A DNA stretch of 64,000 bases, from contig NZ_JASHJC010000001.1 in assembly GCF_030733385.1 (NCBI RefSeq), positions 248,001 through 312,000 of the forward strand, in the 5' to 3' direction. The notes beneath the pieces are model-generated. The model was not told the origin of the DNA, did not search any database, and was given only the letters and a program-made list of their open reading frames with translations. Shown here in pieces: positions 42,928-59,688 of the stretch. The translations under genes were made by a program, and so were the position numbers. Numbering within the stretch: position 1 is the stretch's first letter; every line of letters starts with the position of its first letter. Source of the DNA: Roseovarius sp. MMSF_3359 (GTDB lineage: Bacteria; Pseudomonadota; Alphaproteobacteria; Rhodobacterales; Rhodobacteraceae).

Positions 42928-43078
42928 CCCCCTCTGTCCTTTCGCCTGAGATCGCTATCCCTTCGGCGGGTGCAGCTTGCACCACTCTCCAGAGTTTATC
43001 AATCTGATCGGTCCTGAGGGCCTGAGAGTTTCCGGGGCGGTTGCTCCTTCGGCACCGGCATTGCCGGTTCTCCCGTTC
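42928..43078 (-). promoter_or_regulatory. Tandem glycine riboswitch
   Basis: Read on the minus strand, two aptamers follow each other. The first has GGGAGA, GCCGAAGGAGCAA and AAACTCTCAGGC. The second has CTCTGGAGAG, CGCCGAAGGG, ATCTCAGGC and GGACAGAGGGG. These are the canonical conserved blocks of the gcvT motif. The element precedes gcvTHP, where glycine binding normally turns expression on. Confidence 0.95.
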
Positions 43079-43176
43079 AGATTTGTGCATGCTTTAGTGT
43101 ACAAAGTGAGTCGGGGCAAGGTGGTTTCTCAATCCAGCATAGCCTTTGCCGGTTGGCGGGCGCAATTATTTGATAT

Positions 43177-52375: not shown

Positions 52376-52400
52376 GGAACTCACGCGAAACTCGCGCGTT
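52376..52400 (+). promoter_or_regulatory. EcfG-type promoter of mscS
   Basis: GGAAC-N16-CGTT is a perfect match to the general stress response sigma factor consensus. It ends 34 nt before the mscS start codon, a distance shared by the other promoters of this type nearby. Confidence 0.85.
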
Positions 52401-52434: not shown

Positions 52435-53373
52435 ATGGAAAATTTGGAATCCGTGGCTGAAGACGCCACAAACTGGATGTCGTCGATGTGGACGACCGAC
52501 CTTTTTGACGGCAAATCAATGGCCGATATGCTGACGCTGGAGGCGATTTTGAGCCTCGCGGGCAACATCATCGGTGCAATTGTCATAATTCTCCTGGGTT
52601 TCACGATCTCGGGCATTCTGAAACGGCGCATCCAGCGTCTTGCCGAAAAGCATGCACGGCTTGATGATACGCTCTTCAACTTCCTGTCCAACCTTGCAGG
52701 CTATGGCGTTCTGGCCTTCACCGCGCTCTTTGTGCTGAACACGTTCGGGGTGCAGACCACTTCCATCGTTGCGGTGATTGGTGCCGCGGGACTGGCCGTC
52801 GGTCTGGCGCTGCAAGGTACGTTGTCGAATATCGCCGCGGGTGTGATGATCATCCTGTTCCGTCCGCTGAAAATCGGCGATTTTGTCGAAATTGATGGTG
52901 TCATGGGTACCGTGAAGGATATTGCGCTGAACTACACCGAGCTTGCCGATATGGGCAATGTGAAGGTTATCGTGCCGAATTCCGAGGTCTGGGGGAACAC
53001 GATCCACAATTATTCGGTCTACTCGACCCGCCGGGCCGAATGGACATTCGGCGTGGGGTATGGCGTCAATCTTGGCAAGGCCGAAGAAGTGATCCGCGAG
53101 ACGATCATGGCGGATGACCGTTCGCATACCGACCCCGAGCCGTTTATCCAGGTCAACAACCTGGGCAGCAGCAGCGTGGATTTCCTCGTGCGGGTGTGGT
53201 GCGATTCTTCGGAATACTTCCAGTATCAGGCCGATATGAAGCGCAAGGTGAAAGAGGCGCTTGACCAGGCCGACATCGACATTCCCTTCCCGACGCGGAC
53301 ACTGGTGCATGACACACCTGCGGTCAGGTTGGTGGCGGATGACGACGAACCAAACCTGGTCGCGGCGGAGTAG
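52435..53373 (+). CDS. Small-conductance mechanosensitive channel (MscS family)
   Basis: This 312-residue inner-membrane channel opens on osmotic downshock. A membrane segment (IIGAIVIILLGFTISGIL) and a second (AGYGVLAFTALFVLNTFG) are followed by the pore helix VAVIGAAGLAVGLALQGTLS. The beta domain follows (IGDFVEIDGVMGTVKDIAL, NYTELADMGNVKVIVPNSEV). ATG 52435 has GAGG 6 nt upstream. A perfect EcfG promoter places it in the stress regulon encoded 6 kb downstream. Confidence 0.93.
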   Translation: MENLESVAEDATNWMSSMWTTDLFDGKSMADMLTLEAILSLAGNIIGAIVIILLGFTISGILKRRIQRLAEKHARLDDTLFNFLSNLAGYGVLAFTALFVLNTFGVQTTSIVAVIGAAGLAVGLALQGTLSNIAAGVMIILFRPLKIGDFVEIDGVMGTVKDIALNYTELADMGNVKVIVPNSEVWGNTIHNYSVYSTRRAEWTFGVGYGVNLGKAEEVIRETIMADDRSHTDPEPFIQVNNLGSSSVDFLVRVWCDSSEYFQYQADMKRKVKEALDQADIDIPFPTRTLVHDTPAVRLVADDDEPNLVAAE

Positions 53374-53384
53374 GCGCGGCGCTT

Positions 53385-53410
53385 GGAACAATACCGCCCA
53401 CCTGGGCGTT
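53385..53410 (+). promoter_or_regulatory. EcfG-type promoter of the PLDc_N gene
   Basis: GGAAC-N17-CGTT begins 12 nt after the mscS stop and ends 36 nt before the start codon of the small PLDc_N gene. Confidence 0.82.
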
Positions 53411-53446
53411 ACCCCAACAATGCAACCGTAAACACGGAGAAAAACA

Positions 53447-53635
53447 ATGGAATATGCTGGCATAGGTGGATTTTTGGTCTTGGTCCTGAATGTATGGGCG
53501 ATCGTGTCGATCATCGGATCTGGTGCGTCGACCGGCGGCAAAGTCCTGTGGACGCTGCTCGTTCTGGTCCTGCCCGTCATTGGCTTCATCGTTTGGCTTC
53601 TCGCAGGGCCGAAATCCGCCAAGAGCGTCGCCTGA
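53447..53635 (+). CDS. Small PLDc_N-domain membrane peptide
   Basis: This 62-residue protein has two membrane segments (GGFLVLVLNVWAIVSIIG and KVLWTLLVLVLPVIGFIVWL) joined by a short loop, ending in GPKSAKSVA. This is the PLDc_N hairpin otherwise seen at the N-terminus of cardiolipin synthases, here without any phospholipase domain. Stand-alone copies are common among alphaproteobacterial stress genes. It has its own EcfG promoter and a strong terminator, so it is monocistronic. Confidence 0.85.
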   Translation: MEYAGIGGFLVLVLNVWAIVSIIGSGASTGGKVLWTLLVLVLPVIGFIVWLLAGPKSAKSVA

Positions 53636-53656
53636 GACCAAAATGCAATGATGAGG

Positions 53657-53689
53657 AAAAGCGCGTAGCCGGGGGCTGCGCGCTTTTTC
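53657..53689 (+). terminator. Rho-independent terminator after the PLDc_N gene
   Basis: AAAAGCGCG and CGCGCTTTTT flank a 15-nt inner region that pairs further (AGCC/GGCT). A T-run follows. The A-run on the other side could allow use from both directions. Confidence 0.85.
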
Positions 53690-53791
53690 TTTGCCGCTAA
53701 CCTTTATCGGGTGGTGTGCCCGGTATGCGTCAACCGAGGCTCTCTGCACGGCAAGTGGTACCGACGTAGACAGGTTGCCGTAGCGTCAGTG

Positions 53792-53816
53792 GGAACCTTG
53801 AGCATGAGTGTGCGTT
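53792..53816 (+). promoter_or_regulatory. EcfG-type promoter with no gene behind it
   Basis: GGAAC-N16-CGTT is a perfect match inside a 354-nt gene-free stretch (53636-53989). No start codon with ribosome site follows at the usual 31-37 nt. Two strong stem-loops follow instead, so it may drive a small RNA. Confidence 0.75.
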
Positions 53817-53823
53817 TGCTTCT

Positions 53824-53960
53824 CAGCGGCCAGCTTGACCAATTCCTGGCCGCTGCTAGGGGTTGCAGCCATAAAGATGTCCCAACATTGGTGAGACCCT
53901 CCGCATCCCAAGCGTCCCAGGGATGCTGTACCCCCACCAGTTCACTGGCGGGGGTACGTC
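53824..53960 (+). ncRNA. Candidate stress-induced small RNA
   Basis: The end points are inferred. Transcription from the EcfG promoter at 53792-53816 should start near 53824. The predicted RNA opens with a perfect 10-bp stem-loop (CAGCGGCCAG / CTGGCCGCTG, 53826-53857, 12-nt loop) and has an unstructured middle. It closes with a 13-bp hairpin (53928-53957, one mismatch, loop TTCA). No T-run follows the last hairpin, so it may be a processed or Rho-linked 3' end. The Caulobacter GsrN RNA is a precedent for a small RNA under this sigma factor. A short open frame from 53805 starts before the expected +1 and runs antisense into the next gene. Confidence 0.45.
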
Positions 53961-53989
53961 GTTCTGTGCAATCATTTGTGGTTTTGTGC

Positions 53990-55039
53990 TCAGGCGGATT
54001 CTGTCGGTTCTTCCGAGAGGTTAAGCATCACCAGTGCGATCACGAGGATGGGGATAGCGATAATCCCGCCGACCGGACCCCAGAGCCACAACCAGAACAG
54101 CAGCGAGACAAAAACCAGCAGCGGGTTGACCGAAATGTGTTTGCCGATCGTGCTTGGCGTGACCAGTTGGGATTCGATGATGTTGAGCGTGAGGAAGATC
54201 AGCATCGGCACCACCACCATCGCCCCGCTGAACGCCACGAGCCCCGCGAGCAGGAGGCCAAGGCTCAGCACAAGTGGCCCCAGGTACAGCACGAAATTGA
54301 GCAGGGTTGCAGCCACGCCCCAGACAAACGGTGCGGGCAGACCGATCAGCCATAGAAGCAAGGCAAGCGTGACCCCAAGGCCCAGGTTGATGATCGAGAT
54401 GGTCAGCACGTAGCGCGATACCATCTTTTCGGCGCAGCGGACGCGGCTTATGAAGTGCCCTTCTTCTTGATCGCCCTCCAGAAACCGGGAAATCCAGTCG
54501 TAGATGCCCTGTCGGGTGAGCAGAAAAAAGAAGAGCGACCCCGCGAAGATCAGGAAATGTGCCACAAGAACCGGCGCCAGGAAAAGCGCATCGGTGACCG
54601 TGGGCATCGCGGTTTCGTCTGTGGCGGCTGGTGCGGCTTCGCTCTCATTGACCGCGCCTAGGACTTCTTCGACCTCCTTGTTGACCTCATCCAGACCCTG
54701 GATGATGCCGCGAAACTCGGCGATCAGGTTGCTGATCTCCCATTTGAGCTTTGGCAACTCGTCCACGATGCGCCAGATGAGCGGTTCCGCCGCCAGCGCC
54801 AGGCCCGCGATGGAGATGACCCCGATGGCCAGTACCGAGATCGCGGCAAGGGCCACAGGCAGGCCGGCACGCTGCAACAGATCGGTGAAGGGGCCGAGTA
54901 TGACCCCCGTGACGAGGGCGAGGATCAGCGGCGCGAAGACGTCCTGCCCCAGTTTCAGGGCTATGAAGGTCAGGATTGTGGCCATGAGAAAAATGGCGAC
55001 CCGAACTGCGGGATCAATCATCACTTGGCGATCGGACAT
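53990..55039 (-). CDS. AI-2E/PerM-family transporter
   Basis: This 349-residue inner-membrane protein has the family's eight or so membrane segments. Paired segments (VAIFLMATILTFIALKLGQD, VFAPLILALVTGVILGPFTD) come first, then a long central loop with helices (about 95-150). The conserved block LLWLIGLPAPFVWGVAATLLNFVLYLGPL is in the C-terminal half. Members export small molecules such as AI-2, but substrates vary. It follows the Crp-type regulator gene by 63 nt on the same strand and may be co-transcribed with it. Confidence 0.9.
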   Translation of the reverse strand: MSDRQVMIDPAVRVAIFLMATILTFIALKLGQDVFAPLILALVTGVILGPFTDLLQRAGLPVALAAISVLAIGVISIAGLALAAEPLIWRIVDELPKLKWEISNLIAEFRGIIQGLDEVNKEVEEVLGAVNESEAAPAATDETAMPTVTDALFLAPVLVAHFLIFAGSLFFFLLTRQGIYDWISRFLEGDQEEGHFISRVRCAEKMVSRYVLTISIINLGLGVTLALLLWLIGLPAPFVWGVAATLLNFVLYLGPLVLSLGLLLAGLVAFSGAMVVVPMLIFLTLNIIESQLVTPSTIGKHISVNPLLVFVSLLFWLWLWGPVGGIIAIPILVIALVMLNLSEEPTESA

Positions 55040-58029: not shown

Positions 58030-58848
58030 TCAGGTTTCGATTTCTTCCGAACTGGCGAAGAACATGGCTTGGCTGACTGCCGATTGCACCTGATCTTCTG
58101 TGTAGGGCTTGGTGATCAGGAAGGCGGGTTCGGGCCGTTCGCCGGTCAGCAGGCGTTCAGGGAAAGCGGTGATGAAAACCACCGGCACTTCGCCCATTTC
58201 GGAGAAGATGTGATTGACCGCGTCAATCCCCGACGATTTGTCCGCCAACTGAATGTCCGCAAGGATCATGTCCGGCGGCTGCTTGCGCGCCAGATCGACC
58301 GCGGCATCGCGGGTGCGGGCAATGCCGGTCACCTCGTGGCCCATCTCTTCGACGATCCCCGAGATGTCCATGGCGATGATGGCCTCGTCTTCGATGACCA
58401 TGATGCGCCCATGGATGTGTTGCTGCATCTCTTTGCGCGCGATGTCGAGAAGTTCGCCCGCTTCGGCTTCATCTATTTCCATGATCTGCGCGACCTGGGG
58501 CACGGTGAAGCGTTCAATACTGTGCAAAAGCAAGGCTTCGCGGGTATTGTCGGTCAATTCCGAAAGCAGCTTTTGCGCCCGCGCTTCTTTTTCGGACATG
58601 TCCGTCGGGCCGGCGATCTGCGCACCGGAGGATTTCCAGATGGAATTGAAGGCTTTGAACAGCGCCTCCTTAACCGGCATCCCGGTCGAGATCACATCGG
58701 TGTCCTCAAGGATCGCTTCGAGTGTGGCCAATGCGTAGGTGTCACCGCTGCTTTGGCTACCGGTCAGCGCACGCGCATAGCGGCGCAGATAGGGCAGTTC
58801 CGCACTGATCGCGGATGACAGATCGCCCTGGTTTTGCATGTCGTTCAT
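58030..58848 (-). CDS. phyR: General stress response anti-anti-sigma regulator PhyR
   Basis: This 272-residue protein has an EcfG-like sigma domain (about 1-135, ELPYLRRYARALTGSQSSGD, LLLHSIERFTVPQVAQIMEI) joined to a C-terminal receiver (GRIMVIEDEAIIAMDISGIV, phosphoacceptor Asp in DMILADIQLAD, FLITKPY). When phosphorylated it binds NepR and frees EcfG. It is divergent from nepR-ecfG, and the shared gap has EcfG-type promoters in both directions, giving positive feedback. Confidence 0.96.
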   Translation of the reverse strand: MNDMQNQGDLSSAISAELPYLRRYARALTGSQSSGDTYALATLEAILEDTDVISTGMPVKEALFKAFNSIWKSSGAQIAGPTDMSEKEARAQKLLSELTDNTREALLLHSIERFTVPQVAQIMEIDEAEAGELLDIARKEMQQHIHGRIMVIEDEAIIAMDISGIVEEMGHEVTGIARTRDAAVDLARKQPPDMILADIQLADKSSGIDAVNHIFSEMGEVPVVFITAFPERLLTGERPEPAFLITKPYTEDQVQSAVSQAMFFASSEEIET

Positions 58849-58878: not shown

Positions 58879-58904
58879 GGAACCTAACGCCTTGAGCCGG
58901 AGTT
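58879..58904 (+). promoter_or_regulatory. Probable EcfG-type promoter of nepR-ecfG
   Basis: GGAAC-N17-AGTT differs from the consensus at one -10 base. It overlaps the minus-strand phyR promoter and ends 59 nt before nepR. Confidence 0.55.
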
Positions 58905-58911
58905 GGGTTCC
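58886..58911 (-). promoter_or_regulatory. EcfG-type promoter of phyR
   Basis: On the minus strand GGAAC-N17-CGTT is a perfect match and ends 37 nt before the phyR start codon. Confidence 0.85.
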
Positions 58912-58963: not shown

Positions 58964-59137
58964 ATGACAAAAAAACGCAGGAATCCCCAAGTGGACCAAC
59001 AAATCGACGAAAATCTCCGCCGCGTCTACTCGGAAGCGGCAAATGAACCCGTGCCGGACCGGTTTACGCAACTGCTTGACCAGCTGCGGCAGCAGGAGAA
59101 GTCGAAGACCGCCGATCAGGACGGATCGGACTCGTGA
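58964..59137 (+). CDS. nepR: Anti-sigma factor NepR
   Basis: This 57-residue protein holds EcfG inactive until phosphorylated PhyR removes it. The NepR core is visible as IDENLRRVYSEAANEPVPDR followed by FTQLLDQLR, after a basic N-terminus. The stop overlaps the ecfG start (GTGA), the normal coupling of anti-sigma and sigma factor. The gene is short and easily missed. Confidence 0.93.
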   Translation: MTKKRRNPQVDQQIDENLRRVYSEAANEPVPDRFTQLLDQLRQQEKSKTADQDGSDS

Positions 59138-59688
59138 CAGCGCATTCCGATCCCAAAGAGGAACTGGTCGAACACCTGCCGGCCATGCGGGCCTTTGCGC
59201 TCAGCCTGACGCGGAACGCTGCGACCGCGGATGACCTCGTGCAGGAAACGGTCGTCAAGGCGTGGGGTAATCTCGACAAGTTCCAGGAAGGGACAAACCT
59301 GCGGGCCTGGCTCTTCACGATCCTGCGGAACACCTTCTATTCGCTGCACCGCAAGCGCCGTCGCGAGGTCGAGGACCCCGAAGGCGTCATGGCCGATTCG
59401 CTTTCCGAGAAGCCGCATCATGATGGTCGTCTGGCGATGAACGACTTCCGCGAGGCGTTTGCCCAACTGACCGATGAACAGCGCGAGGCACTGGTTTTGG
59501 TCGGCGCCGAGGGGTTTTCGTATGAAGACGCCGCAGAGATGTGCGGTTGTGCCATCGGTACGATCAAAAGTCGCACGAACCGGGCGCGAAAGCGGCTGGC
59601 GGAGCTGATGCACCTCAACGACGAAGAAGACCTGGAATTGACGGATCCCGCAACGCTTGCGGTTGTGACGGGGCAGCCTGCTGCATGA
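59134..59688 (+). CDS. ecfG: General stress response sigma factor EcfG (ECF15)
   Basis: This 184-residue ECF sigma factor has region 2 (LPAMRAFALSLTRNAATADD, LVQETVVKAWGNLDKFQEGT, NLRAWLFTILRNTFYSLHRK) and region 4 (LTDEQREALVLVGAEGFSYE, DAAEMCGCAIGTIKSRTNRA). It recognises GGAAC-N16/17-CGTT, of which several copies lie within 7 kb. GTG 59134 overlaps the nepR stop, and its own stop overlaps the kinase start. Confidence 0.95.
   Translation: MTAHSDPKEELVEHLPAMRAFALSLTRNAATADDLVQETVVKAWGNLDKFQEGTNLRAWLFTILRNTFYSLHRKRRREVEDPEGVMADSLSEKPHHDGRLAMNDFREAFAQLTDEQREALVLVGAEGFSYEDAAEMCGCAIGTIKSRTNRARKRLAELMHLNDEEDLELTDPATLAVVTGQPAA

Follow-up and report, generated by a model that had tools for sequence, protein, structure and literature searches.

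What would a perfect sigma-EcfG promoter transcribe where no gene follows it? In the 64,000-nt stretch of Roseovarius sp. MMSF_3359 DNA analysed here (the window), the motif GGAAC-N16-CGTT is present, as the initial annotation had stated, in a gene-free gap of 354 nt (53636-53989) between the stop codons of a PLDc_N protein gene (53635) and a convergent AI-2E family transporter gene (53990). The annotation had proposed a stress-induced RNA of about 135 nt, and comparison with relatives supports this proposal, with a predicted length of ~140 nt here, an EcfG promoter and a conserved structure. The locus is very probably best explained as the gene for a general-stress small RNA, driven by EcfG and pairing through C-rich loops with target mRNAs. 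As far as comparative analysis goes, the locus is a non-coding RNA gene that is conserved together with its EcfG promoter. The features of the locus are collected in the table below.

Table. The predicted small RNA gene and its neighbourhood, in window coordinates
Feature	Position	Strand	Remarks
Sigma-EcfG promoter GGAAC-N16-CGTT	53792..53816	+	-35 at 53792-53796, -10 at 53813-53816
Predicted small RNA, ~140 nt	53822..53966	+	Start at ~53822-53824 inferred from promoter spacing
Hairpin 1	53824..53855	+	10 bp, 12-nt loop, z -4.0
Hairpin 2	53859..53900	+	Apical AUGUCCCAACAU (C-rich loop 1); z -1.2, weak by itself; homologues support it
Hairpin 3	53903..53926	+	7 bp, loop AAGCGUCCCA (C-rich loop 2), z -3.7
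Hairpin 4, probable terminator	53927..53966	+	13 bp, one mismatch, weak U-tract (GUCGUUCUG), z -5.1
PLDc_N (PF13396) protein gene, 62 aa, upstream neighbour	53447..53635	+	Own EcfG promoter at 53385
Intrinsic terminator of the PLDc_N gene	53655..53695	+	-27.3 kcal/mol, z -4.5, T-rich tail
AI-2E family transporter gene (PF01594), downstream, convergent	53990..55039	-	
phyR, ~4.2 kb from the RNA gene	58030..58848	-	PF22029, PF22233, PF00072
ecfG-type sigma factor gene	59134..59688	+	PF04542, PF08281, PF22029

The promoter class is enriched in the window, where GGAAC-CGTT with spacers of 15-18 nt occurs exactly 10 times against an average of 2.5 in shuffled sequence (0 of 100 shuffles reached 10); any single site could be chance. 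Six other promoters had been described as lying 28-37 nt before a start codon. Among the eight exact matches in 40001-64000, an ATG 34-37 nt downstream was confirmed for four (52376, 53385, 57155 and, on the minus strand, 58886) and not for six, and the promoter at 52376 has another in-frame ATG just 13 nt downstream. The PLDc_N gene has a strong terminator of its own, found by folding and absent from the list of a separate scan, and the promoter at 53792 thus heads a separate transcription unit. No sigma-70 promoter was found in 53300-54100.

phyR and the ecfG-type sigma factor gene, the latter named from its position beside phyR, lie 4-6 kb from the RNA gene. A small frame at 58964-59137 (ATGACAAAAAAACGC...) overlaps the start of ecfG and is probably nepR, also named from its position. 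The gap between phyR and nepR (58879-58911) holds overlapping EcfG-like promoters on both strands within an inverted repeat, perfect on the minus strand and GGAAC-N17-AGTT on the plus strand; the same gap in the sister genome (L121/L040) has perfect EcfG promoters on both strands. By their sequence, these paired promoters suggest self-activation of both transcripts. The AI-2E protein of the window is 81-82% identical to that of an uncultured Roseovarius and 62-63% identical to that of R. lutimaris. In many Roseovarius (L122, L125, L126 and others) the AI-2E gene has an EcfG promoter just 8-9 nt before its ATG, and the mRNA may there be nearly leaderless; the AI-2E start in the window has no exact EcfG promoter match.

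Folding of the 144 nt from 53822 yielded -68.2 kcal/mol (z -5.0), a value that none of 200 shuffles equalled. The 10-bp hairpin noticed earlier at the expected 5' end and the 13-bp hairpin about 100 nt later are both present, the latter with one mismatch and a stem-loop proper that spans 53927-53958. The count of two hairpins was too low: the fold gives four, hairpins 2 and 3 having been missed. A search for second copies in the strain's own genome returned only short matches besides the locus itself.

A BLAST search with the DNA of the gap against 60 genomes recovered just the window's own sequence, the RNA being too diverged for such a search, which alone would suggest that it is not conserved. 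Relatives were instead located through synteny and promoter spacing. At the same place, R. lutimaris (L041/L122) has a perfect EcfG promoter, then a 5' hairpin and, at the end, a canonical terminator. Regions of at most 20 kb surrounding phyR or AI-2E were compared, 56 in all, from genomes of the genus. In 12 of them (L122, L125-L131, L133 and L171-L173) an EcfG promoter behind PLDc_N precedes a structured RNA whose end resembles a terminator; L176 has a similar RNA at another place and L123 one with an 8/9 promoter. In these relatives the predicted unit opens with an EcfG promoter and a 5' hairpin; a second hairpin with UCCC in its loop and a third with (U)GUCCC come next, and a GC-rich terminator closes it. 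More than 1.6 kb separates the RNA from AI-2E in R. mucosus and several others, and antisense action on AI-2E was therefore rejected as its conserved role.

A covariance model, R1, was built from 12 relatives first picked by an EcfG promoter or its variant. It runs from the hairpin 2 loop to the terminator and leaves out the window, R. lutimaris and all promoters. R1 matches the window at 53874-53963 with 35 bits (E 1.6e-8; the next best match there has 11.2 bits), and this is its sole match at E 0.01 in the window's genome. Across 84 genomes of the genus it gave 78 matches at E 0.01 or better, in 46 genomes: 26 with a promoter, 51 without and one on the reverse strand of a member. A promoter was counted as present when 8 or 9 of its 9 letters were found 42-57 nt upstream; the 51 have at most 7. 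Twelve promoter-bearing matches belong to the model and 14 do not; of the latter, 12 were found by R1 alone, and it was the promoter that had first drawn attention to the other two, the window and R. lutimaris. All 23 matches with E 1.1e-6 or better are among the promoter-bearing 26, and each of the 11 non-model matches at this level has the promoter at 45-57 nt, while random positions drawn from L121-L176 reach 8/9 at 40-60 nt in 1.0% of 20,000 draws. Seven weak promoterless matches were inspected and resemble ordinary GC-rich terminators. The covariance search that the initial annotation had recommended has in this way found the RNA again in other Roseovarius, close to their general-stress genes and at a constant distance from an EcfG promoter.

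Beyond the genus, R1 matched at E 1e-5 in 7 of 394 family genomes; besides the window, a promoter (8/9) was present only in L207, from another genus, with L208-L212 having none. At 74 other AI-2E loci, 23 matches up to E 0.5 were obtained (best 24.4 bits), and among the 13 inspected only L056, an RNA of the Salipiger type described below, had a promoter. The family appears from these searches to be absent from Rfam: against Rfam 15, the sole match in the window at gathering score was a glycine riboswitch at 42999-43085, and the best match on the RNA in six member loci had 20.1 bits (E 0.94) against a cut-off of 49.5. The riboswitch (RF00504) scores 57 bits and lies on the minus strand.

The RNA was found in 24 of 49 genomes of the genus with a PhyR match at E 1e-30 and in none of the 35 PhyR-negative ones (Fisher p 1.7e-7, with phylogeny ignored), 8 of which have weak R1 matches, all without a promoter; in the other 25 PhyR-positive genomes no RNA was found. 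The distance to phyR is 2.5-7.7 kb in 21 of the 24 genomes and 4.2 kb in the window. Two diverged copies, one near phyR and one beside PLDc_N, occur in G096 (L171, L137) and in G016 (L172, L135), and G103 may have a second copy too (L131, with a perfect promoter beside PLDc_N and no model match). In the nearest relative of the window (G014/L121, the same as L040), the gap behind PLDc_N holds hairpin 1 and a promoter in register with two mismatches, GGTAC-N16-CGTG. This genome has no R1 match and therefore does without the RNA; judged from its sequence, it is a natural loss in which a degenerate copy is left.

The conservation was followed in 26 members, from promoter to tail, comprising 25 loci of the genus (two of them second copies) and L207. 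L143, a near copy of L142, and L147 (promoter 6/9) were dropped, and since L147 was dropped for its promoter, promoter presence helped define the 26. L131, beside PLDc_N in G103 and with a perfect promoter, was left out, having no R1 match up to E 0.5. In an arm-swap test on 17 members less than 75% identical, each sequence's own arms were set against swapped arms, and the mean for own arms was reached in 0, 0 and 2 of 20,000 permutations for hairpins 1, 2 and 3, respectively. For hairpins 3 and 4 a model-fitted alignment of 23 members, which leans towards structure and whose shuffles do not keep relatedness, has 97.7% paired cells and changes on both sides in 7 of 15 pairs, neither value being reached in 500 shuffles; further pair types in this alignment were not above shuffles (94/500).

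The conserved letters are those of the C-rich loops, rather than of the stems in hairpins 1 and 2. UCCC is found in the hairpin 2 region of 25 of the 26 members, GUCCC and UGUCCC in the hairpin 3 region of 24 and 23. The exposure of the loop in hairpin 2 is predicted. The window's own loops read AUGUCCCA and GCGUCCCA, the second having GCGUCCC and not the common UGUCCC. In the subgroup L132 and L134, GUCCC of hairpin 3 is replaced by GAUACCA and the hairpin 2 loop has CUGUCCCC, a pattern that looks as if one loop suffices; L131 appears similar. The run of T after the last hairpin, whose weakness had been pointed out before, is indeed poor, with T at 4 of 8 positions; hairpin 4 is followed by 5 or more T in 8 nt in 17 of 26 members, and the R. 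mucosus group has 3. Codon-like substitution or a lack of conserved stems had been named as grounds for abandoning the RNA; instead the stems covary, the loops are conserved and no coding pattern was seen.

RNAs of a second type were found in other genera. At the 74 AI-2E loci outside the genus, an EcfG-like promoter is followed within 140 nt by at least two GUCCC at 11 sites. Eight of these clearly belong to a single type of RNA, found in Salipiger and Alloyangia, and in four of the eight it occupies the position behind AI-2E that the RNA has in the window. Of the remaining double-GUCCC sites, L053 and L095 are plausible and L078 is doubtful. The eight loci (L048:7090-7206, L059:7131-7246 and six similar ones) have a fixed loop containing CCUGUCCC and a covarying stem, and in six of the eight promoters the first letter of CGTT is not C. 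Both-side changes occur in 8 of 23 stem pairs (1 of 500 shuffles as high), and further pair types are not above shuffles (384/500). A covariance model of these eight RNAs, R2, finds a ninth, L065, with an 8/9 promoter. Among the 394 family genomes it gave 16 matches at E 0.001, two of them with a perfect promoter (L222 and L236) and 14 without, and among 195 genomes of the order three strong matches, all in one genus. Since the filters of the genome scans were strict and only a few candidates were scored in each genome, absences are weak evidence. In 58 Roseovarius and window sources R2 gave 10 weak matches up to E 0.5 (best 22.6 bits), 7 of which are loci of R1-type RNAs, two being near copies of each other. 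R2 does not match the window's RNA; a relationship between the two types is therefore probable, but not certain.

The combined results suggest a model of how the RNA may act. Under stress, PhyR would take NepR off sigma-EcfG and so free the sigma factor, and RNA polymerase would start at ~53822 and stop at hairpin 4, giving a four-hairpin RNA of ~140 nt. The first and last hairpins would protect the ends of the RNA, and its working parts would be the C-rich loops of hairpins 2 and 3 with their core GUCCC. Base pairing of these loops with G-rich segments (core GGGAC) in target mRNAs, probably close to ribosome-binding sites, could change the translation or stability of these mRNAs. Expression, termination in this strain, pairing in trans and the targets are what we infer here from promoter, structure and loops.

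An RNA that is real and EcfG-driven might do something other than pair with mRNAs, and use its two C-rich loops to bind a protein or sequester a different small RNA. A short motif that recurs in two separate loops would suit a titrating RNA, and the target searches found no target: in 25 stress regions, GGGACA occurs close to start codons at 18 sites, with no common gene (largest cluster 3 of 25, at phyR), and pairing with the katG leader, assessed for 8 RNA-katG pairs in 8 genomes by a rough duplex test with simple shuffles, gave no consistent signal, the best pair being equalled by 11 of 200 shuffles and the others by 58-170 of 200. Nevertheless, the fixed C-rich loops seen here, and the good U-tract terminators of 17 of 26 members, are usual features of base-pairing RNAs. 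GsrN uses a loop of this kind to pair with katG (PMC5869019). We consider the titrating or protein-binding role unlikely, and mRNA pairing is retained as the preferred reading.

It is less likely still that the window holds a decaying copy, in which promoter and stems stay while termination or function is failing. The sister locus is degenerate, and the window has a weak U-tract and a variant loop 2. All four stems are intact, however, the promoter is perfect and the R1 match reaches 35 bits, and the R. mucosus group, with a still weaker U-tract (3 T in 8 nt), is otherwise well conserved. That the hairpins are only terminators of the convergent neighbours, behind a chance promoter match, is very improbable. 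Hairpin 4 ends ~31 nt before the AI-2E stop on the plus strand and could terminate both ways, and ~2.5 promoter matches are expected in the window by chance; but the PLDc_N gene has its own terminator, the RNA is remote from AI-2E in R. mucosus and several others, and the promoter stands at 45-57 nt in 11 of the 11 best non-model matches, compared with 1.0% of random positions. A gene for a short protein, or the beginning of a longer frame, is hardly credible, for although long frames cross the region (e.g. one of 214 aa at 53711-54355) and an ATG frame of at least 26 codons lies in or runs out of the transcript in 18 of 26 members, one-base indels separate three of eight close pairs that are 87-96% identical (L128/L129, L126/L127 and L132/L134, 87-94% identical; none in the other five), which argues against coding, as do the covarying stems, the absence of ATG from 3 of 26 members and a longest ATG frame in the window of 15 codons, starting in hairpin 3.

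A small RNA acting on mRNAs would place the locus in a wider setting. The work on GsrN revealed a post-transcriptional arm of the general stress response in alphaproteobacteria; in that study, sequence homologues were confined to one family (PMC5869019). With a conserved RNA near phyR in the Rhodobacteraceae, the question whether the response generally includes such an RNA can be put to a direct test. Marine Roseovarius probably make this structured RNA under stress, if promoter and conservation are a guide; an abundant marine group thereby gains a concrete, small target for genetics, and the fixed loops indicate which bases to test. With moderate confidence, we incline to the broader view that a family of general-stress RNAs peculiar to the Rhodobacteraceae, in which a pair of GUCCC loops is fixed and the stems drift freely, is common to Roseovarius and Salipiger and forms a post-transcriptional arm of PhyR-NepR-EcfG encoded near phyR. 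The family would then be either a deep relative of GsrN, preserved by its position, or an independent invention of a like solution, and its targets would be mRNAs with GGGAC sites, not katG.

How does the RNA compare with known systems? CcsR/cuckoo RNAs have CCUCCUCCC hairpin loops, are under RpoH control, are linked to stress and occur in Rhodobacteraceae and Rhizobiales. They share C-rich hairpin loops and the stress link with the RNA of the window, which differs in its motif (GUCCC) and its promoter class (EcfG); CCUCCUCCC is absent from the window RNA and from the other 25 members. Among the matches listed, no such RNA was found in the open-licence literature on GsrN, EcfG stress sRNAs, Roseovarius, Rhodobacteraceae/CcsR and cuckoo RNAs, nor in the excerpts matched from that on Ruegeria sRNAs and Rhodobacterales EcfG sRNAs (R. 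sphaeroides PhyR). The main text of PMC5869019 has no word beginning 'Rhodobacter'.

GsrN of Caulobacter crescentus, according to Tien et al. 2018 (PMC5869019), is a non-coding RNA of ~100 nt at full length with a sigma-EcfG/SigT promoter, a C-rich exposed loop, through which it pairs with katG, and an intrinsic terminator. Its BLASTn homologues are limited to the Caulobacteraceae; predicted homologues are typically near ecfG-nepR-phyR, while gsrN of C. crescentus itself is distal to the stress locus. The same paper reports GsrN-like RNAs proposed in Rhizobiaceae, Rhodopseudomonas and Bradyrhizobium, several with transcript evidence, on the basis of a near-consensus EcfG site, an intergenic position and proximity to the stress locus, with a C-rich loop near the 5' end in Rhizobiaceae (PMC5869019). 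The window's RNA, compared with these by description, likewise has the EcfG site, the intergenic position and the proximity to the stress locus. The GsrN-like control that had been proposed for it is borne out by the EcfG promoter, and also by the location near phyR and the C-rich loops, as far as these can be read from sequence. The likeness to GsrN, drawn from the features described, extends to the promoter, a similar size, a C-rich loop in the 5' part (with predicted exposure), a terminator and proximity to ecfG-nepR-phyR; what is expected of a sigma-EcfG-dependent small RNA, a promoter directly upstream by sequence and spacing and a conserved non-coding structure, is also seen. Unlike GsrN, the window RNA has two C-rich loops with the core GUCCC, in hairpins 2 and 3, and katG pairing was not found in the genomes analysed. 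The kind of system is known, and the conserved, probably EcfG-driven small RNA described here, of a family not in Rfam, is a new member of it.
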